A stretch of 27,015 bases of DNA, taken from assembly GCA_900128395.1 (NCBI GenBank), contig LT649423.1:1-27015 (forward strand), written 5' to 3'. Both the position numbers and the translations under genes were made by a program. Positions within the stretch are counted from its first letter, which is position 1, and the number at the start of each line of letters is the position of its first letter. Positions 2,481-25,429 of this stretch are shown here, piece by piece. The notes under the pieces are model-generated. The model saw nothing but the letters and a program-made list of their open reading frames with translations, searched no databases and was not told the DNA's origin. The stretch comes from Stramenopiles sp. TOSAG23-2 (Eukaryota > Sar).

Positions 2481-5400
2481 TCACACAACATGCCTTTTAC
2501 TTGCTCTTTTACTCCAATTTGTAAGAATGTTTCGTACAAGAGATAAACGTGGTCGATCTTCCATTTTTTGTGACCAACATAAATTGACAAGGTCAACATA
2601 TCCAAGTCCTGTTTTTTTGTCATAAAAATGAAAATTTTTCAATGATTCCATATCTTTCAACGTAATCTCAGGTCGTAAACTATCATTCACAACAGCACGA
2701 TTGATCATATTCACTGGCTCGCCTTCAAATGGCATTTTATTTGTAAGCAAGGCCCATAATAAAACACCTATGGAGAAAACATCGCCAGCTTCTGAATATT
2801 GTTCTAACATTAACATTTCAGGCGGTAACCATCCCGCAAAGTTAGATTCATCACCAAGAACTTCAGCTTTATTACTTTTAACGATATTTTTATGAATCCC
2901 AGATAATTTTACCTTTATTTCTTGTGCATTTTTTTCCTTTGGTTGAAATAAACAAAACATTTCACTAGCAGATAAATGTCCATGGAAAACATTTCGTTCG
3001 TGTAAATATTCAAGAACATTGCATAATTTAGTAAGAATCTGTAGTTTTCTATTCCATCCTAATGATGGACCTTTATTTAGTATTAAACTCTTTAAAGTTT
3101 CGTACTCTTGTTCTTTTACTTGCTTGAACAATAAAAAACTTTTTGAATTATTAATCTTTACCGGATTCCATGTACAACCAATACATTCTAATAAATTTAC
3201 ATGTTTATAAGAAAATAAATTTGAAATTTCTTCAAGTATTTTTCGTTCACTACGTTGAATATTTTTTAGTTTCTTTCCACGTCGAAATTTCAACTTTAAA
3301 GCATAAATTGTCGTTTCTGTTGATATCACTTTGCCACAAATATATGACTCATGCAATATACTTTTATCCATTGGAGAATCAAAAAGCTGAATGTTGCTAG
3401 TATCTACAAACCAATCATGTTTAGTTGCATCTAACGTATTATCATTGGTCGCTGATGATGCTGTCTTTTTTACACCTGTTGTGCCCATTGCTGCTGGGTT
3501 GTTTTTCCATTCGTTTAAACTTAACCCAACTTCCGGGCCACTATATTCAACTTCATATTTAAGTTTTGTACATGCCGTTGATGCAGAACATCGTTCTTTT
3601 ACATCACCATTCCAGCAAGATTCTGTGATTTTTTGCATACCTTCCGCTTCCGCTTCACTCATTCCAGTCCCATCAAACACCCATGTTGGGCGTAAATTTT
3701 GTTTTGCAACATGTAAACTTTGTTGATATGCATTCAGATCGCTATCAAAATATGGTTCCTTTCTCGTTGCGATTTCGTATAATATAAGCGAGAAAGCAAA
3801 AATATCACCAGCAGTAGTGTAATCTCCGCCTAATGTAACTTCTGGAGGTTGATAAAGAAGTGTACCTTTCGGCCCTTTGAGACCAGGAGCTAAATTTTTT
3901 GTATCGCCTTGTCCATCATCAATTGCGACATTGTTCCGTAGCGCTGATAACCCATTTAGAGAGCCCGAAAATGAGCTATTAGAAGCACCACCTTCACTAT
4001 CATCTTTCTCAAATTCACTTAAACCAAAATCACTAATTTTACAAACCCAATGCTCATCAACAAGGATATTCTCACTTTTCATATCACAATGTGTCATTCC
4101 TTTTGAGTGCAAATATTCAAGACCAAGAGCAATATTAAATGCAAAGTCCCATAGTCTATTTGCATTTAAACGAATGGTAGGATCTTGTAAAATACCGCTA
4201 AGAGTTCCTCGTTCCATATAATCTACAACAAGAGAACTTTGTTCTAAAATGGCACCAATGAATTGGACTAAATGTTTATGACGTAAATCAACTAGACTCA
4301 CTAATTCTGCTACAAAGTCTGCATTTGAAAGTGCAGCTTTTGAAAATTTCTTTATAGCAACTTTGGTGTTTCCATATGTACCCAACCAAACTGTTCCATA
4401 GGCACCTGTTCCAATACTTTTCACAATCACCACTTCATTGGAATTGATGGTCCATGCATCTGATTTTGCAGATACAATTCGTTTGATGCTTTTGTAATAA
4501 TTTGTATTTGTACAAGTTTCCAATATTTTAATTACAATATTTGTAAATCTTGGGTTGAAAAAAAAAGCCCACAATACAAAGGCGGTCCACCATCTGCAAA
4601 ATGCACCAATGAGGACATTAATGGTTCCATCATTGTTTATTGTCGTGCTGTGGAGCGTAGCGTATGAATGAGTGATGTGTTAGAGACAATGCCCTTTTTA
4701 TTAGGTTTAGGATAATATAGAAGTTACTTACATTCTTAAATATAAAATTGTTGGTATTATTTGACATATTGTGCCATTGTAAACGGCTAATGAGATTGAA
4801 TGACTATCTTGAAAAATACTTTCAACATATGTATTTTGAATCGATAATAAAACTGCATATAAAATAATAGAAAATTCTATGAATGAAATGATAGGTATAT
4901 ATGTCAAAGCCGTATTTACTGGGCATACGTTGTGGACATAAAACAATGGAGCAATATTAGGCTTTACATTTGGATTTGAATATAATGGTTCAGGCCCTCG
5001 TATTTCTACATCTACGATTGCCCAAATTATTAAATAGACAATTACAAAAGCAAAGACGGCCAATGTTGTCATAATCATTTTCCTAGATTCACCTGGAAGA
5101 TATGTTTTTACTTTTTTACTTGAAAAAATGGCTGTCATTGATCTTAATCTACATACTAAAGGAATAATAGTAAATACTGTTGAAAAATATCGAAATGCAA
5201 ACTCTAAAGTGCAATGTATATTATTACCAGATTCTACATTTGGCTCCGCAGTAGTCAATATGACTTCAATGTTGACGCAAATTATACCAAAATACAATAC
5301 GTTTTCATAATTTCGTTGTTGAATATCCTTATCATTCAACTTTTGTTTTTTGAAATATGGAATGATATATGTCCCAATTATGGCACACGTACAATAAACG

Positions 5401-7259
5401 GCATGGGCGATAGCAATTACATGAAGAATTGAAAAAAATATTGGTATAGCATCATAGATTTTACTTCTATCATTTAATGATAGAACGTTTGGACAAAGGT
5501 ATCCTTCATGTACAGCACTTTTCCAATTGCGCCTCATTTCGCTTCGGTTTTCCGATATTACACTACAAAGTGCATGATTCATAGCAACACTTTCTATTTG
5601 TTTCCACCGTTGCTTGTAATTATTTTTTATAGTGTAATAGATTTTAAAAACCTTTTGCAAATTATCATCTTCAAATTGGTAATCTTTTAAAAAGGTGTAA
5701 ATTGGAGATGGAACATGTTTCTCATTAAAAAGTCTATCGTTTATCCTTTTTGCTTGCTTTTGTAATGATACAGATAGTGTTTTGTGAAGTGCTTGAGGTT
5801 TATCATCACAGTTTGCTTTTGAAAAATTTCGATAAACATCAGGATGTTCATTTTTGCATATATCTTTAAATATTTCTCTACGCGTTAGACGGCATTCTTT
5901 AGTAGATGTAGGAAACAAAACATCAAACATTTCAAATTCTGTTTCTGCATATTCATAAAATAAAACATCTGGTTTCCACCACCACATAAGAACCATTTCT
6001 TTCCGGTCTTTTGCTGCAGCCCATATTTCAGCAACGTTAGAAATAGTATAACCTCCCCGTTGTTTTGGTCCATGAAAACTAAGACTGACATTATTTAGCG
6101 GTATCATAAATTTTGAAAAATCTCCCCAATCGCATTTTTCTAATATTATTGCTGACCCAATGCAAGTTGATGGATTTAACGTGCAATTATTAATACCATT
6201 TCCATCAAAATAGCCATGAAACACTATTGTATCATTATTTGAGAATCGATGAAAATATTTATCTCCTAAATTTGTATTTAATGGTGGACATAATGATGAT
6301 TTTATTGATTCTAAAGGATAAAAACGATTGCAATATTCAGTCCAATTTACCGGCCTTTTAAATAATCGTGCCATTTTCTCTCGGTCTTGAAAACCACGAT
6401 AAGTAGCAAGTGAATGATCTGTATCCACTGCCCATTTAGGTACCATTAAGGCTATCCGTCCTATGAAACCTATTAAACCACCTCTCTCTATTGTACGATT
6501 TAAAGCCATTTTTTCAACCCGTTTAGCAACTGATTCCCAATATTCAAATTGCACATGCGCACATGGTTTTGTCGGATCAGTGCATTTGCAAGTTAAATTA
6601 AGGCGATTTGTTCCAGCTATATATGCGTTATTGATGCACCCACCATTTTTTATTGCATCTAAATCATATGCTGAAACTTTTTCTCTTGTATAAAGTGGAG
6701 TTTCTATATGCTCTTCATAAAATCCTTTTGAAACAGATTTATCGTAGCGATATAATACAGGGTATTTCATATACTCTACCATAAAAATCTGAGCCGCGTT
6801 AGACACAAGGTTTGCACTAAGCCAATTTTGGGGGGCAATATAAATTTCTTGACCTCGAAATAGCTCTCCAACTGGCGACGTATCACATCGTTTTAATTTT
6901 CGGTCAGAATCATCTATGCAAATACGATTTGTATAGTCATAATTCGTACATTCTTCCATAGGAAAAACACCAATATCTAATTTATTTATTAAATCACGGA
7001 AACATCCGTCTCTATATGGATTTAGACATTTTCTCACGGACAAGTCGCATTTTGGTGGCAGTGGAATTGCATCCCCACAGTCAGCACAATCAAAATTTAT
7101 TATACAATCACTGTCTTTCTCACAAGGGCATAATACTCCACTATTTGTTGATGATGGCAAACACGCAATAATAGGTTGAACTATACAACTAAATTTAAAT
7201 AGAAGAAGTAATGAAGAGAAAATCAATAATGAAATATTTTTAGTATGGCAAAAAAGCAT
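2481..7259 (-). CDS. Class C-type 7TM receptor fused to a TKL kinase and a pseudokinase (GPCR-TKL), two exons
   Basis: Exon 1 is 7259-4732 and exon 2 is 4593-2481 (TGA stop); the intron is 4731-4594. The predicted product has 1546 residues. Residues 1-33 are a signal peptide. Residues about 34-600 form a Cys-rich, N-glycosylation-rich ectodomain. Seven TM segments follow at about 604-635, 651-672, 683-706, 728-750, 783-810, 819-841 and 842-866. C683 at the start of TM3 and C779 before TM5 could form the usual GPCR disulfide. TM7, with the class C-like motif FFFNPRFTNIVIKIL, is encoded by the kinase exon, which itself has no in-frame ATG upstream of its kinase domain. The TKL kinase (about 900-1185) has GTGAYG, Lys924, Glu939, HCD Asp1013, Asn1018, DFG Asp1031 and a PPE motif. 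A degenerate kinase (about 1260-1535) follows. Fusions of this kind are known as oomycete GPCR-bigrams. Expected role: plasma-membrane receptor with its own cytoplasmic kinase. Confidence 0.85.
4594..4731 (-). other. Intron joining the 7TM exon to the kinase exon
   Basis: On the minus strand the donor is AGAAT|GTAAGTAACTT and the acceptor is GGTGCATTTTGCAG|ATGG. The intron is 138 nt, close to the 135 and 178 nt introns elsewhere in the window. Exon 1 ends on two bases (AT) and exon 2 supplies A, so codon 843 is Ile. The frame then continues WWTAFVLWAFFF into the kinase. If unspliced, translation would stop at the TAA inside the donor itself. Confidence 0.85.
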
Positions 7260-8083: not shown

Positions 8084-8105
8084 CCTTGCCAGTTTTGCCA
8101 GCTTG
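8084..8105 (+). repeat. Short direct repeat, right copy
   Basis: This is the partner of 7463-7484, differing only where GC is replaced by TT in the middle. It lies about 30 bases upstream of the ATG at 8137, in the presumed 5' UTR of the membrane protein gene. Confidence 0.7.
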
Positions 8106-8136
8106 CCTGTACATATATCTTATAATATCCCCTACG

Positions 8137-9153
8137 ATGTCTGGAAATCGTATAAGTTACCCACCAACACAAGAAGAGTTTGAAGCAATGTTGCAGAAAA
8201 TACAATTATTAGAAGAAAAAGAACTTCAAGTTAATCTGTCTTTAGATGAAAATACTCAATCAACTAACAAAGATACTAAAGTCTTTGTAAAATCAATCGA
8301 ATTGGGATCACTACCTAAACCTGAAAGAGCTAGGAATAGGCGTGCAATCAATAGGAATTCGTGGGTTGACGCGTATCATGATATCACAGCAAGGAAACAA
8401 AACACAGTAATATTAGGAGAGGAAATTTCCATCGACGATTTTCTCGATTGGAGAGTTAAATGGAGTCAACGTGGTATGTTACTATTTGGATTTTTGTCAA
8501 TGATCACGTTTCTAATCAATGGCCTATTCCTGAATAGTGTTTTCGGCGGTTATACACTTATTTGCTTTGGTACAGCTACGATTCTCTGTGTTTGCATATT
8601 TTGTTACAAAAATTTTTCTCTATTTTTAATAAAACGTTTACTAAAAGAACCAAACGTTGTTTGTATTATTTTGCTTGCAGTTTTAAATTTTATCATCGAA
8701 ATTAGGTCAACATGGTCAGAAGTTGCATGGGTCTATGGTTTGCTGTACATGCTTGTTGCTTTCGCATTTATAAGTATGGATGCTGTTAAATTAAGATGCA
8801 GAGTTACTGTACTTTGTTTTGGTAATATTTTCATTATTATAAATGCATTTAATATTTATAATTGTATATTCGGTGAATCTGCCGTTGGTGTGGTACTTTT
8901 TAAATACACAGTTTATGGAAAAGAGTATTCATTCATGAGACGTGCAACTCAAAGATCTATTTTCATCCAAATTGCTTTATTCAGTATTAGTGCGGTATAT
9001 ACATTGTTTCATGATAAAAAAATGGAATTGATGCTATTTCTAACAAGCAATGTATACCGTAAAAGTGGTACTGTATTAGAAGAAATGATGTCAATTTCAT
9101 TCAAAAAACGAGAAGAAAAAAAAAAACCATCATCAAGTAGTAGAGCACACTAG
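8137..9153 (+). CDS. Six-pass membrane protein of unknown family
   Basis: The ATG at 8137 (MSGNRISYPPTQEEF) gives 338 residues and a TAG stop. The same frame is open upstream, but only with non-ATG codons, so 8137 is the likely start. The N-terminal ~110 residues are soluble and charged, with a short helical stretch (FEAMLQKIQLLEEKEL) and an ISIDDFLDWRVKWSQRG segment just before the membrane. Six hydrophobic segments follow: MLLFGFLSMITFLINGLF, GGYTLICFGTATILCVCIF, VVCIILLAVLNFIIEI, WVYGLLYMLVAFAFISM, VTVLCFGNIFIIINAF and SIFIQIALFSISAVYTLF. The tail is Lys/Glu- then Ser-rich (KKREEKKKPSSSSR). There is no signal peptide. I cannot assign a family, so no function is proposed. Confidence 0.85.
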   Translation: MSGNRISYPPTQEEFEAMLQKIQLLEEKELQVNLSLDENTQSTNKDTKVFVKSIELGSLPKPERARNRRAINRNSWVDAYHDITARKQNTVILGEEISIDDFLDWRVKWSQRGMLLFGFLSMITFLINGLFLNSVFGGYTLICFGTATILCVCIFCYKNFSLFLIKRLLKEPNVVCIILLAVLNFIIEIRSTWSEVAWVYGLLYMLVAFAFISMDAVKLRCRVTVLCFGNIFIIINAFNIYNCIFGESAVGVVLFKYTVYGKEYSFMRRATQRSIFIQIALFSISAVYTLFHDKKMELMLFLTSNVYRKSGTVLEEMMSISFKKREEKKKPSSSSRAH

Positions 9154-20509: not shown

Positions 20510-23500
20510 ATGGCAGAAAAATACGCAGTGGAGCTGGCATTGCCTGGCAATGAAGCCAATAATAATAATAATAATAATGAGAATATGACATTTCTACTAG
20601 CAAAAGATGCTGGTCTCATACCACGTTCCGTACGATTAGAAATTGCAGCAAAAGGCGCCTTGCAAGATGCGCCATCAAAACAACTAGTAGAGCAAGCATT
20701 GCTTCTCTCGGATATATCTGGCTTTACGGCGCTTGGAGAAAAGTTAACTGCAGAACATGGTGATGCAAAAGGTGCTGAAGAATTTGCACATCAAATGAGC
20801 GAAGTTATTTCAGCTTTGGTCAATGTAACACACCGATACGAAGGTGAAGTTGTAAAAATAGCAGGAGATTGTTTAATTTGTACTTTTGCTGCAATCCCAT
20901 CGGATCCAGAAGATCGGGGTGATGAAAAAGCATTTGAACGAGCAAAAGAATGTTCCGTTGAGATGTTAAAAGTTGTTAAAGGAACAAACCCGGATCTTGA
21001 TCTCCATGGTGGATTAGCAGGAACAGCACCCTTGCAAAGGATTCACTTGAAAGAGTTGCGTGGATCATCCCCGCGATCCAATAGTGCAAGGCAACGTATG
21101 AAAAAAAACGATGAAAGTACGATGTCGCGTGCTGAATTTGAGCGCAGCAAACAGCGATGGTTTTTAATTGCTGGCAGACCTATAAAAATTGCAGCTGGAC
21201 TTCTTGATAGGGCAAAGCCTGGTACAGTCAAAGTTTTTGGTGGGTTAACTTTGACTCGGGAAACGAATACTGCTGATATTCTCGATGAGGAAGAAGATGC
21301 AAATCAAACAGAAAGGCGAATGTCTAAACGTGGTAGCATGATTGATACATATACTGCTGAACTTTCCACATGTCCAGAAATTGCATCTTCGTATCTCCCT
21401 CCAATTGTACGTGCTAAAGGTAATAGTGCACAGTTTGAAAATGAAAAACGACGGGTAGTAGTCGTATTTTTATCTTTACCTGGTTTAGCAAAAGAATCTG
21501 TCACCTCGAAAGGCGTGAACGAGGCGCATTTAAATGATGTTTATTCTGCACTTCGTTCTATACTTTCTAAGTTTGAAGGGCAAATGCGAGATTTTTTATT
21601 TGAAGACAAAGGTTGTACGTTGATTGCATGTTTTGGAATTACTCGTATTACTGAAGTGGATGCTTTGCGAGCAGTTCTTTTTGCACTAGAAGCTTCATCT
21701 GCATGTTCCTCCCTTAGTGACCCGTGCAAGATTGGGATATCAATGGGACAATGCTTTACTGGAATATGTGGCCATCCATCACGTAATGATTTTGTTGTAA
21801 TGGGACCAGAGACAAATATGGCAGCAAGATTGATGGGAAAAGCTGAAATAGGAAAAATATTGGTATCTGAAAGAGTATATAATGCCACACAAAATTACAT
21901 TGGATACGATATGTCGAATCCTATTGAAGTAAAAGGTAAAGATGGTACATTTCGTGCATTGTGTCCATATGGAAGACGAGCGGGTGCAGTACGTCATAAG
22001 AATCAAGATGAATTGGATAAAGCGGTTTTTGTTGGGCGTGAAAAAGAAATGACTGTATTACGAGCTGGTTTGAAGTCCATGTTGGAAGAACAAAAAGGTG
22101 GTGCTTTTATTTTAGAAGGTTTAGCAGGTATGGGTAAAAGTGCGATTGTATGGCAATTGCAAAGAGAAGCAATAAATGACAACGTTCGTTTTTTAATGGG
22201 TACTGGATCTGCAATTGAAAAACAGACACCATATTTTGCATTTGGTCAAATTTTAACTGCTGCTGCAAATTTATCAACTTCACCTTCGTATGGTGAAGTT
22301 TTGGCATTAAAATTTAATCATCAATTGGAAGAAGACGATATCAATGCGCTTGGTATTATGTTACCAACATTAGCAAAACGCGATGCAGCCGGTACACAGC
22401 TAGAACATGGACGTTTGGAAGCTCGTGCTGCACAAGTTTGTTTGAAAATATTTCAAAGCCTTGAAAATACAATTTTCGTATTTGAAGACGCTCATTGGAT
22501 TGATTCCCAATCTTGGATTATGTTGCAGATGGTATTACCACAATTATCAACTAAAAGTATTGTTATGATAGTTACACGCCCACCAAATATGATTTCTCAA
22601 CAAAAAGCTGGAGGTGCTGATCAATTATTGGAAGAAAATGAAGGTAAAATTGAAGATGAGTGGTTAGAAGATGACGATCGTATTAAATTCTCTCGAATTT
22701 TAGCTGCTTTGAAAGAAAATAGCGCTATTTCGTATTTGGAATTAGGTACAATGGGAACAGACGCCATGCGCGAATTAATCGCAAAAACGCTTGAAGTTGA
22801 TGGGTCATCGGTAAATGATGACTTTGTAAACTTAATGGATCAAAAAGCTGGAGGTATTCCAATGTATTTATCCTCCATGACCAATTGGTTAAAAGAACGC
22901 GATATGGTGCAAAAAAAGGAAGATGGTAGTATATTTTTTACTGGTGACATAAAAGAGATTAAATTTCCAAGTTCAATCATGGATACAGTACATGAGCGTA
23001 TTGATAGTCTCGACGATGAGGCAAAAGTTTTGATAAAAGTTTGCTCATGTTATGGATTTGAATTTCGTCAAGATAGTTTACAAAAAGTTGCTCCGCAATT
23101 TTTGTCTTCTAAAGATGAATCACATTTGCAAAAACACTTGGAAACATTGGCTGCACGTGGTTTGGTTGTAGCTGTTACTGGCGAATCCGTTAGTAAAATG
23201 ATGAAATTTACACATCAAATTATTACCGAATGTTCGCATAACTTAATGTTGGATTCACAAAGACGCCAAGTACACAAGGCAATTGTTGAAGAGTATGAAA
23301 GTTCTACAGTTAAGTATGAAATGGATGTACTGGCTTTTCACTGGTTGCGAAGTGGGGATGTTGAACGTGGTTGTGATATGTTACAAAATGCTGCTTTAAA
23401 AGCGCTCGAGATAGGAGCTTATAAAGAATGCGTTAATTCGTTAAGTCAAGCTATTGCATATGGGGTAAAACTAGACAATAGCCGTGTTGCATATTGGACT

Positions 23501-25429
23501 GCTTTGTTGGGATATGCTCGATATTCCTATTTTGATTTTTACTCTGCAGATCAAATCATGCTCAAAGCATGTCAAATTTTAAATGACAAAACGTTTAATC
23601 CTCAAAAAAGAACGGACGCATCTATTGACAAAATGGTCCGTCAATATGGAGAGTTTGACGATGCACCGACTGTTGTTGATGGTACATTTACCGATGCCGA
23701 TCGAACAAAAATGCTAGTTGCATTTGTTTTTTCTGAAGGCATAACTAGACCTCATACTATTCAACCTAAAGTCATGGAAGATTATGGCTTGACAGAAGAG
23801 GAAATTATTTCAAATGCCAAATGGTATAAGTATTATGCACTAGTAACATCGTACAAAAGTAATGATATTGATATTTGGTTCCGATGTCATGCGTATTGGC
23901 CACAAGTTAATAGTGGTCGACTTGTAAAAGAAGATCCGGATGGAGTTCGTAGGATTTACAGACGTCTGGGCGTATTATCCAAAGAAAAACGCTTGAAACC
24001 CCAACTACGATCATCGGCACTCTCTGCTCCGTACAATTGGTATGTCATGATTGCGCCAGAAAGTATTCCAGATGGACTAGAGCGATTACAGAGTGGTTTG
24101 GAATTGGTAGATGGAAATATAAAATACGCAATGGAACAAATTTGGCACTTGGGAGCTTTGCGATTCTCGTATTATTCTTTGGGTAATGTCAAAATGTATT
24201 TGCACTATGCAGATAGAATGGCGAAAGTAAAAACAGATTCTGAAGCTCTCGAAGACATGAAGGCGAATGGCTATTTTTTCGCAAGAATGTCATTGCTAGG
24301 ATCTAATGCATTGTTGGGTGATTTTGCACAAGTGAAAATAGAGTACGATAAATTGATGTCTATGGGTGATATTTTCCCAAACACTCGTTCAAAATATCCA
24401 CCTGAGTCGATGGCGATCATTTTCGCAAGGTATTACGCATATTCGCAACTACGGAGTGGTCAGTATGATATGGTAGAGCTACTCCTTGAAAAGATGTTTA
24501 GCAAAAAATGGGCTTATAGAGCTATTTTGCCTTTGAATCCACAATTTGAATTTAGTTTTTTTTGTGTGACCTATTCTGCTTTGTTGATGTATGAACATAA
24601 ATTGAAACAAGGTGAAGATGGCGGGTTTTATCGAAAAGCCATGAATATTATGCGAGGGTCACTTGAAATGTTTGGGAAAATGTCACCGGGTGTTTTTCGT
24701 TGCTCTGGAGCTGCCTTTGCTGCCAGGATATCTCTTGCTTTAGGTGATCGGCCAACTAAACCAATATTGGAAAAACTAGAAAAGACACTAGCGTATACAA
24801 TCGAACTAGGTTGTAAACCAATATGCGAACTATTTTTAAAAGGAGAGATAGGGCGTTGGAAAGGTGATGCTTCTCAAGTCTCTGAAGTTGCTGATAAATT
24901 CAAAACAATGGGGCATGTTGCATACCAAAACTTCTTTTCAGATATTGCGACATCTTTAAATATTGGTGACATGAAAGCTGTAGATTTGGAATATATTCCT
25001 GCCTCAACTGAAAAACAATTGACAAATGAAGAAAAACTCGCCGAGATAGAAAAATCTTTGGTCGAAATAAAAAAAGACATAACAGTGGCATCTAGCGAAG
25101 GCGACATGGAAGCTGTTAATGATGCACGGGCACGGGCAAAAGATTTAAAAAAGACAAGGAAGGAATTGAAAAAGAAAATAGAGGAGGCGAAACAGGGCAA
25201 AGCCCCTGCTGTTGACCAAGCTAAAATTGACGATTTGCGAGCAAAAATTGCTGACGCAAATACGCGCGTTTTGGCAGCATTTGACGATGATGATGATGAA
25301 GCGGAAGAAGCTGCAACAGCTGAAATGGCTGAATTAACGAAACAACTGAATGAGTTAACCGGTGGATCATCCATACCAAAGAAAAAATTGGAAGATGCAA
25401 AGAGTAAAGATGCTAATATAAATAAATAA
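20510..25429 (+). CDS. Soluble adenylyl cyclase, ADCY10 type: twin cyclase domains, ATPase and TPR-like region
   Basis: A single exon encodes 1639 residues (human sAC has 1610). C1 cyclase, about 60-250: metal-binding Asp68 in LLLSDISGFTALGEKL and Asp120 in EVVKIAGDCLICTF, with Lys116 at the position of the bicarbonate-binding Lys of human sAC. C2 cyclase, about 312-490: FEDKGCTLIACFGI, KIGISMGQCFTGICGHP, and Asn436/Arg440 in GPETNMAARLM, the residues that help bind ribose and stabilise the transition state. A STAND/AAA-type ATPase follows: FVGREKEM (507-514), P-loop GLAGMGKS (537-544), Walker B IFVFEDAHWID (655-665). A long helical TPR-like region follows. The C-terminus (about 1510-1639) is charged and coiled-coil-like. 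The enzyme makes cAMP from ATP in cytosol or cilia; the family is bicarbonate- and calcium-stimulated. C1 carries an extra loop (about 175-215). Confidence 0.95.
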   Translation: MAEKYAVELALPGNEANNNNNNNENMTFLLAKDAGLIPRSVRLEIAAKGALQDAPSKQLVEQALLLSDISGFTALGEKLTAEHGDAKGAEEFAHQMSEVISALVNVTHRYEGEVVKIAGDCLICTFAAIPSDPEDRGDEKAFERAKECSVEMLKVVKGTNPDLDLHGGLAGTAPLQRIHLKELRGSSPRSNSARQRMKKNDESTMSRAEFERSKQRWFLIAGRPIKIAAGLLDRAKPGTVKVFGGLTLTRETNTADILDEEEDANQTERRMSKRGSMIDTYTAELSTCPEIASSYLPPIVRAKGNSAQFENEKRRVVVVFLSLPGLAKESVTSKGVNEAHLNDVYSALRSILSKFEGQMRDFLFEDKGCTLIACFGITRITEVDALRAVLFALEASSACSSLSDPCKIGISMGQCFTGICGHPSRNDFVVMGPETNMAARLMGKAEIGKILVSERVYNATQNYIGYDMSNPIEVKGKDGTFRALCPYGRRAGAVRHKNQDELDKAVFVGREKEMTVLRAGLKSMLEEQKGGAFILEGLAGMGKSAIVWQLQREAINDNVRFLMGTGSAIEKQTPYFAFGQILTAAANLSTSPSYGEVLALKFNHQLEEDDINALGIMLPTLAKRDAAGTQLEHGRLEARAAQVCLKIFQSLENTIFVFEDAHWIDSQSWIMLQMVLPQLSTKSIVMIVTRPPNMISQQKAGGADQLLEENEGKIEDEWLEDDDRIKFSRILAALKENSAISYLELGTMGTDAMRELIAKTLEVDGSSVNDDFVNLMDQKAGGIPMYLSSMTNWLKERDMVQKKEDGSIFFTGDIKEIKFPSSIMDTVHERIDSLDDEAKVLIKVCSCYGFEFRQDSLQKVAPQFLSSKDESHLQKHLETLAARGLVVAVTGESVSKMMKFTHQIITECSHNLMLDSQRRQVHKAIVEEYESSTVKYEMDVLAFHWLRSGDVERGCDMLQNAALKALEIGAYKECVNSLSQAIAYGVKLDNSRVAYWTALLGYARYSYFDFYSADQIMLKACQILNDKTFNPQKRTDASIDKMVRQYGEFDDAPTVVDGTFTDADRTKMLVAFVFSEGITRPHTIQPKVMEDYGLTEEEIISNAKWYKYYALVTSYKSNDIDIWFRCHAYWPQVNSGRLVKEDPDGVRRIYRRLGVLSKEKRLKPQLRSSALSAPYNWYVMIAPESIPDGLERLQSGLELVDGNIKYAMEQIWHLGALRFSYYSLGNVKMYLHYADRMAKVKTDSEALEDMKANGYFFARMSLLGSNALLGDFAQVKIEYDKLMSMGDIFPNTRSKYPPESMAIIFARYYAYSQLRSGQYDMVELLLEKMFSKKWAYRAILPLNPQFEFSFFCVTYSALLMYEHKLKQGEDGGFYRKAMNIMRGSLEMFGKMSPGVFRCSGAAFAARISLALGDRPTKPILEKLEKTLAYTIELGCKPICELFLKGEIGRWKGDASQVSEVADKFKTMGHVAYQNFFSDIATSLNIGDMKAVDLEYIPASTEKQLTNEEKLAEIEKSLVEIKKDITVASSEGDMEAVNDARARAKDLKKTRKELKKKIEEAKQGKAPAVDQAKIDDLRAKIADANTRVLAAFDDDDDEAEEAATAEMAELTKQLNELTGGSSIPKKKLEDAKSKDANINK

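Follow-up and report, generated by a model that had tools for sequence, protein, structure and literature searches.

Fusions of a seven-transmembrane (7TM) G-protein-coupled receptor (GPCR) to a tyrosine kinase-like (TKL) kinase are known in oomycetes and amoebozoans (PMC5784254, PMC6033456) and in choanoflagellates (PMC12716839); what is said here of these and the other cited papers refers to portions of their texts. For the choanoflagellate fusions, the authors inferred repeated independent fusion and stated that, to their knowledge, none of the GPCR-kinase fusions has been functionally characterised (PMC12716839). The window analysed here, 27,015 nucleotides (nt) of Stramenopiles sp. TOSAG23-2, is the entire contig LT649423.1 (C190) of an assembly of 17.45 Mb in 793 contigs whose content is eukaryotic, and the window has a G+C content of 32%. 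On its minus strand, between positions 2481 and 7259, it carries one spliced gene with a well supported predicted product of 1564 amino acids (aa), comprising a signal peptide, an ectodomain of about 570 aa, a 7TM domain, a kinase and a pseudokinase. Sequence analysis and comparison with relatives establish the predicted gene structure, the domain order and the inactive second kinase domain.

Gene structure and splice junction

The initial annotation had joined two adjoining minus-strand frames, and both frames are as it described them. The receptor frame (ATG at 7259 to stop at 4728, 843 aa) contains six hydrophobic segments after a signal peptide and an ectodomain according to its hydropathy, and six long helices in the structure model. 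The kinase frame (2481..4679, stop to stop) has no methionine before its kinase domain. The GTAAGT donor at 4731 and the acceptor TTTTGCAG ending at 4594 likewise exist, and joining them gives the 1546 residues that had been reported. We enumerated by script all GT-AG pairs within 4560-4790 that span no fewer than 40 nt and keep the whole frame open. Only two junctions were found, both using the donor at 4731, with the acceptor ending either at 4648 (84-nt intron) or at 4594 (138-nt intron).

Compared with acceptor 4594, acceptor 4648 puts back 18 residues, TTINNDGTINVLIGAFCR, which make up the third extracellular loop (ECL3) and the start of transmembrane segment 7 (TM7) and are encoded at 4594..4647. 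Two predicted orthologues were found by protein search: P0001 (EukProt g3046.t1), which aligns to the window protein at 82% over residues 560-1564, and P0002 (ENA), which aligns at 58%. The restored stretch is present in P0001 in all 18 positions and identical in P0002 in 11 of 18 (ANINQDGTINLLVSAACR). The intronless paralogue C550 of the same genome (1034 aa in a single frame) aligns without a gap over TM6, ECL3 and TM7 when acceptor 4648 is used, whereas acceptor 4594 would open an 18-residue gap and leave TM6 directly abutting half of TM7. The 84-nt intron (4648..4731) begins with GTAAGT, contains CTAAC, which resembles the branch-site consensus, and ends with CTCCACAG. Since the two orthologues and the paralogue fit acceptor 4648, exon 2 is predicted to start at 4647 and the product to be 1564 aa long, and we regard these relatives as the decisive evidence for this acceptor.

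A custom hidden Markov model (HMM) built from four paralogous 7TM regions was also used to score the junction variants. It gave 62.6 bits for the 4648 form, 55.5 bits for the six-TM frame alone and 52.8 bits for the 4594 form. Over 200 shuffles of the restored residues the scores had a median of 56.7 and reached 65.4 bits at most, and an HMM without C550 scored the six-TM frame at 5.2, the 4594 form at 1.2 and the 4648 form at 5.2 bits, the corrected form thus doing no better than the six-TM frame. Because some shuffled inserts outscore the real one and removal of C550 ends its advantage over the six-TM frame, this test alone is weak and not decisive.

The splice from 4731 to 4594, with its 138-nt intron, was dropped because the orthologues, the paralogue and the topology contradict it and the HMM test agrees weakly, which leaves the earlier 1546-residue model 18 residues short. 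Its acceptor is well formed and keeps the frame open, and it could be used in a minor alternative form; as it deletes ECL3 and the start of TM7 found in P0001, P0002 and C550, and, with all three HMM versions, brings the 7TM profile score down, we consider it very improbable. Hardly more credible is a split into two genes, one for a six-TM receptor that terminates at the stop past 4731 and one for a kinase with a different first exon. The stop does come immediately after the donor, but the kinase frame itself opens with ECL3 and TM7, its kinase is preceded by no methionine of its own, and gene prediction gives each of the two orthologues as one protein with this layout, in agreement with the single spliced gene first proposed.

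Following the frame and the junctions listed, exon 1 (4732..7259) encodes residues 1-842 plus two bases of codon 843 and thereby the signal peptide, the ectodomain and TM1-TM6. The signal peptide (approximately residues 1-32, 7164..7259) was placed by hydropathy and by alignment of ACLPS with P0002. Exon 2 (2481..4647), set by the frame and the relatives, encodes ECL3, TM7, the juxtamembrane stretch, kinase 1, a linker, the pseudokinase and the stop.

The 7TM domain (residues 604-872, hand-set limits; 4560..5450, split by the intron) is probably of class C type, as had been suggested. Pfam 7tm_3 matches the receptor frame with 32.6 bits and its TM part alone with 37.5 bits (cut-off 33.5). In both orthologues, which also carry the kinases, the match is above the cut-off and runs through TM7 (P0001, 39.7 bits, profile positions 9-250 of 251; P0002, 50.3 bits, 13-250 of 251), and at E values up to 1 the profile matched all nine rows of our alignment A2. 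The motif FFFNPRF stands at the end of TM7, as the initial annotation had noted. With six TM segments only, the C-terminus would lie outside. With the hand-set limits, the inside parts contain 5, 4, 0 and 5 lysine or arginine residues and the extracellular loops 0, 2 and 0, charges that fit a topology with the N-terminus outside and the C-terminus inside.

Kinase 1, the pseudokinase and their relatives

Pfam identified two kinase regions in the kinase frame, and motif analysis of seven aligned proteins bears out the description of a kinase followed by a pseudokinase; the seven include P0037, which is 98% identical to C109, a protein of the same genome. Kinase 1 (residues 908-1190, 3606..4454), delimited by Pfam, motifs and the tree, keeps the VAIK-type lysine, the catalytic aspartate, the asparagine and DFG in 7/7. 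In the window protein these sites include K942 (4352-4350), D1031 of HCD (4085-4083) and D1049 of DFG (4031-4029), all on the minus strand. The residue before the catalytic aspartate is cysteine (HCD) in six of the seven and serine (HSD) in P0038, so that the kinase is of the non-RD kind, without the arginine of HRD. Kinase 1 matches PK_Tyr_Ser-Thr and has a Ser/Thr-type DMKSEN catalytic loop, while the solved kinases closest to it by sequence are ITK, Lck and BTK, tyrosine kinases of the Tec/Src type. On the strength of the match and the loop, the TKL assignment of the initial annotation is kept as TKL-like, which is plausible, not settled, given these nearest sequences.

The second domain (residues 1279-1552, 2520..3341), likewise placed by its PK_Tyr_Ser-Thr match (77.6 bits), motifs and the tree, lacks the HRD aspartate in all seven proteins (H, H, R, F, N, L, L) and also lacks DFG in all seven. 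In the window protein, His1400 (2978-2976) takes the place of the HRD aspartate, and GIH, starting from Gly1426 (2900-2898), that of DFG. At the position of the beta-3 lysine, K-[FY]-R-x-G-K is conserved in 7/7.

The kinase pair also occurs under other heads. C109 (L024:265-5637) is a single 1791-aa frame with a 5'-nucleotidase C domain (84.2 bits), one TM segment by eye, a kinase and a pseudokinase. P0038 and P0039 have the same layout, P0038 with an additional ANF match (26.0 bits, cut-off 25.4), and P0003 consists of ANF, one TM segment (by eye) and the kinase pair. The juxtamembrane sequence preceding kinase 1 is AKSDAW in the window protein, P0001 and P0002, AKSEAW in P0003, AKSSAW in P0038, SKSDVW in P0039 and NSANAW in C109, an [AS]KSxAW-like form being present in four of five layouts. 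In a tree that also includes eight other kinase matches of the genome (L001-L008, out of 128), the kinase 1 domains form one clade and the pseudokinase domains another, each with support of 100/100, and kinase 1 of the window groups with that of P0003 (95/97). When the pseudokinase was searched against the window genome, C109 was second-best with 133 bits and the next match reached 39.5 bits. A protein search for such relatives gave 74 matches of 8000 scored; the pseudokinase was checked in the top four (P0037-P0039 and P0003), the check leaving aside P0040, P0042 and P0044, among others at 88-94% query coverage.

Unfused forms of the receptor exist as well, namely C550, which has its own tail, and its relatives P0110-P0113 without kinases. 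A protein search with the receptor profile, covering 4750 candidates, returned only four unfused relatives of the C550 type and missed the known P0001 and P0002; the absence of further fused relatives from it therefore means little.

Taken together, these layouts suggest that the kinase and pseudokinase form a cassette reused with heads of the 7TM and the single-pass kind. The parsimonious reading would be that the pair arose once and that heads were exchanged later. We put forward a wider proposal tentatively, as possible rather than probable: a transferable output cassette of single origin, made up of the juxtamembrane helix, a non-RD TKL-like kinase and a pseudokinase, would have been combined with three or more types of head, namely class C 7TM, ANF in a single-pass receptor, and 5'-nucleotidase in a single-pass receptor (with an ANF match in P0038), and would make a GPCR a receptor kinase that needs no G protein and is driven by the geometry of its dimer.

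Elsewhere in this genome, C28 (L023, about 3999-4490) is a near-copy of part of the C550 receptor, truncated within TM7 and probably a pseudogene fragment. C227 (L025:2886-6656, minus strand) combines, in one frame, kinase matches with a receiver domain of the response-regulator type (81.9 bits), the latter, by eye, between two kinase regions.

Ectodomain and proposed signalling

The ectodomain (residues 33-600, 5460..7163) has a cysteine-rich start, followed by a region related to the ectodomain of C351 (genome search E value 3.6e-6, hhalign 2.8e-10). The C351 ectodomain matches OpuAC, a substrate-binding domain of the glycine betaine type, with 30.7 bits; among the A2 rows, OpuAC matched one of nine, with no direct match in the window protein. 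A PDB search with an ectodomain profile from six of the nine A2 rows (leaving out P0001, P0110 and C351) gave nothing up to an E value of 5, and the C351 ectodomain gave three weak, chance-like matches only. From the kinship with C351 we infer a fold resembling periplasmic binding proteins, which might correspond to the large ligand-binding (venus flytrap) domain outside class C receptors, and since that relative matches OpuAC, the ligand may be a small solute. C351 itself (L022:4560-8999) is a class C 7TM receptor with OpuAC and weak EGF-like matches outside and a SAM domain inside, a different kind of receptor fusion. In a further 7tm_3 receptor, C560 (L020:3205-6024), the ectodomain matches the bacterial solute-binding domain SBP_bac_1 with 37.4 bits.

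Judging from sequence, the best reading is that the protein is a dimeric receptor kinase, gated by ligand and headed by a 7TM domain, with direct kinase output, to which we assign a probability of roughly 55%. Class C receptors are dimers, and by analogy this receptor would be a pre-formed dimer. Closure of the ectodomain upon ligand binding would re-orient the two 7TM bundles and the juxtamembrane helices, and this would free kinase 1 from its own pseudokinase, so that it could directly phosphorylate targets in the cytoplasm as well as itself. Because the HRD arginine is missing from kinase 1, control would be expected to depend on the pseudokinase and on dimer geometry more than on phosphorylation of the activation loop. 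The single-pass receptors with the same cassette presumably signal by geometry or clustering, which, together with the dimeric nature of class C receptors, favours ligand-driven release. Direct output is preferred over output through a G protein because the cassette also occurs in single-pass receptors, where a 7TM bundle for G-protein coupling is absent.

Several observations weigh against this reading. In the joined window constructs no 7tm_3 match was reported, although the six-TM frame gives one. The profile check suggested for the joined protein thus failed on the constructs and came out as anticipated only in the orthologues; we think that the HMMER pre-filter drops the match, which is unproven. 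Among the 36 matches of the protein search, only P0001 and P0002 show both 7tm_3 and kinase domains, and their joins are themselves predictions. Residues 1 to about 190 of P0001 are absent from the window protein and from P0002, likely through fusion of the gene model with a neighbour, so that errors are present in part of at least one gene model in the public data. The structure models are poor, with a mean predicted local distance difference test (pLDDT) score of 48 for exon 1 and a middling 62 for the kinase pair. The best Foldseek matches of the pair were an EGFR kinase duplication, a JAK dimer complex and TYK2 (4oli), followed by RAF kinases with a single-kinase fold, aligned domain not stated; as the TM-scores of the best matches are near 0.3 at a root mean square deviation of about 20-25 Å, the mutual placing of the two domains cannot be read from them. 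Finally, the genome encodes a G-alpha protein (C92, 87.4 bits) and RGS matches, so that output through a G protein is possible and constitutes the main rival.

According to that rival, the same gene would signal mainly through a G protein, and the attached kinase would phosphorylate the tail and loops of the receptor as a switch-off, like a built-in GPCR kinase, as proposed for the oomycete GPCR-TKLs (PMC6033456, legend of Figure 2G; PMC5784254). Besides the G-alpha and RGS genes, C550, an unfused paralogue with a tail of its own, speaks for it, as the 7TM domain can exist without the kinase; the single-pass heads that carry the same cassette, however, have no 7TM domain to desensitise, and we consider this explanation unlikely, if the most serious of the competitors. 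A smaller chance still is given to a second kinase domain that is more than regulatory and that still binds ATP, has some unusual activity, or acts as a bait or a scaffold in the way argued for pseudokinases of plant tandem kinases. The conservation of K-[FY]-R-x-G-K despite the lost HRD and DFG would fit such a role, but with the catalytic and the DFG aspartate absent from every aligned protein, it appears quite doubtful.

On the question of how GPCR-kinase fusions signal, the family offers a natural control, as a single kinase pair is joined to a 7TM head in some proteins and to a single-pass head in others, while the same type of receptor is found with kinases (window, P0001, P0002) and without them (C550, P0110-P0113). 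The recurrence of the pair under different heads suggests an interchangeable signalling module through which a seven-helix receptor might act as a receptor kinase.

Neighbouring frames and comparison with known systems

Elsewhere in the window, the first 663 residues of a 1639-aa frame at 20510-25429 hold two stretches of cyclase domain together with a match to the ATPase family AAA_16, much as in soluble adenylyl cyclases. A 355-aa frame at 8086-9153 adjoins the receptor gene on the opposite strand; no Pfam family matches it, and several parts of it look hydrophobic by eye. The assembly seems to contain redundant contigs, because the paired contigs C163/C209 and C18/C644 share kinase matches with identical coordinates and scores.

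The literature search, thin on subscription journals and preprints, found no paper on a GPCR with a kinase plus pseudokinase, and we did not find the pair described as a cassette across receptor heads. Like the oomycete and amoebozoan GPCR-TKL bigrams, in which an N-terminal 7TM domain is followed by an intracellular TKL kinase (PMC5784254, PMC6033456), the window gene is predicted to encode a 7TM domain and a C-terminal kinase in one polypeptide. The comparison with oomycete bigrams made in the initial annotation holds as a likeness of layout, the protein being set beside them by description only. The Phytophthora infestans fusions differ in that they have a TKL domain, followed in 8 of 17 by a DEP domain (PMC5784254, PMC6033456), and the word 'pseudokinase' does not occur in the main text of PMC5784254. 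The choanoflagellate GPCR-TKL/K and GPCR-TK proteins share the 7TM domain with a C-terminal kinase, but neither 'tandem' nor 'pseudokinase' occurs in the main text of that paper; the 7TM domains of GPCR-TKL/K cluster with no other GPCRs (PMC12716839), and here, too, the window receptor is compared by description only.

The tandem end, put forward earlier as possibly new, is so only in this combination, within the reach of our searches, because among the TKLs of P. infestans three tandem-kinase proteins are reported, with dual kinase domains among the transmembrane forms (PMC3019232, legend of Figure 3). They differ in that the paper assigns both domains of each protein to one family, and the portions of that paper examined contain no kinase-pseudokinase receptor and no class C 7TM domain (PMC3019232). 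The plant tandem kinase-pseudokinase (TKP) proteins such as WTK1/Yr15 also pair a kinase with a pseudokinase; WTK1 has them in that order and its first kinase is non-RD (PMC6170490), as is kinase 1 here. Loss of the catalytic aspartate in one domain of a tandem was found in all seven of our aligned proteins. The 92 plant proteins surveyed, in contrast, have no further conserved domains and no receptor head (PMC6170490), whereas 7TM, nucleotidase or ANF heads are present here. The cassette proteins would at most work like plant TKPs and are not members of that group. With the JAK family they share a kinase and a pseudokinase in one chain and a place in receptor signalling. In JAKs, however, the pseudokinase precedes the kinase, and the protein is recruited to a separate receptor.

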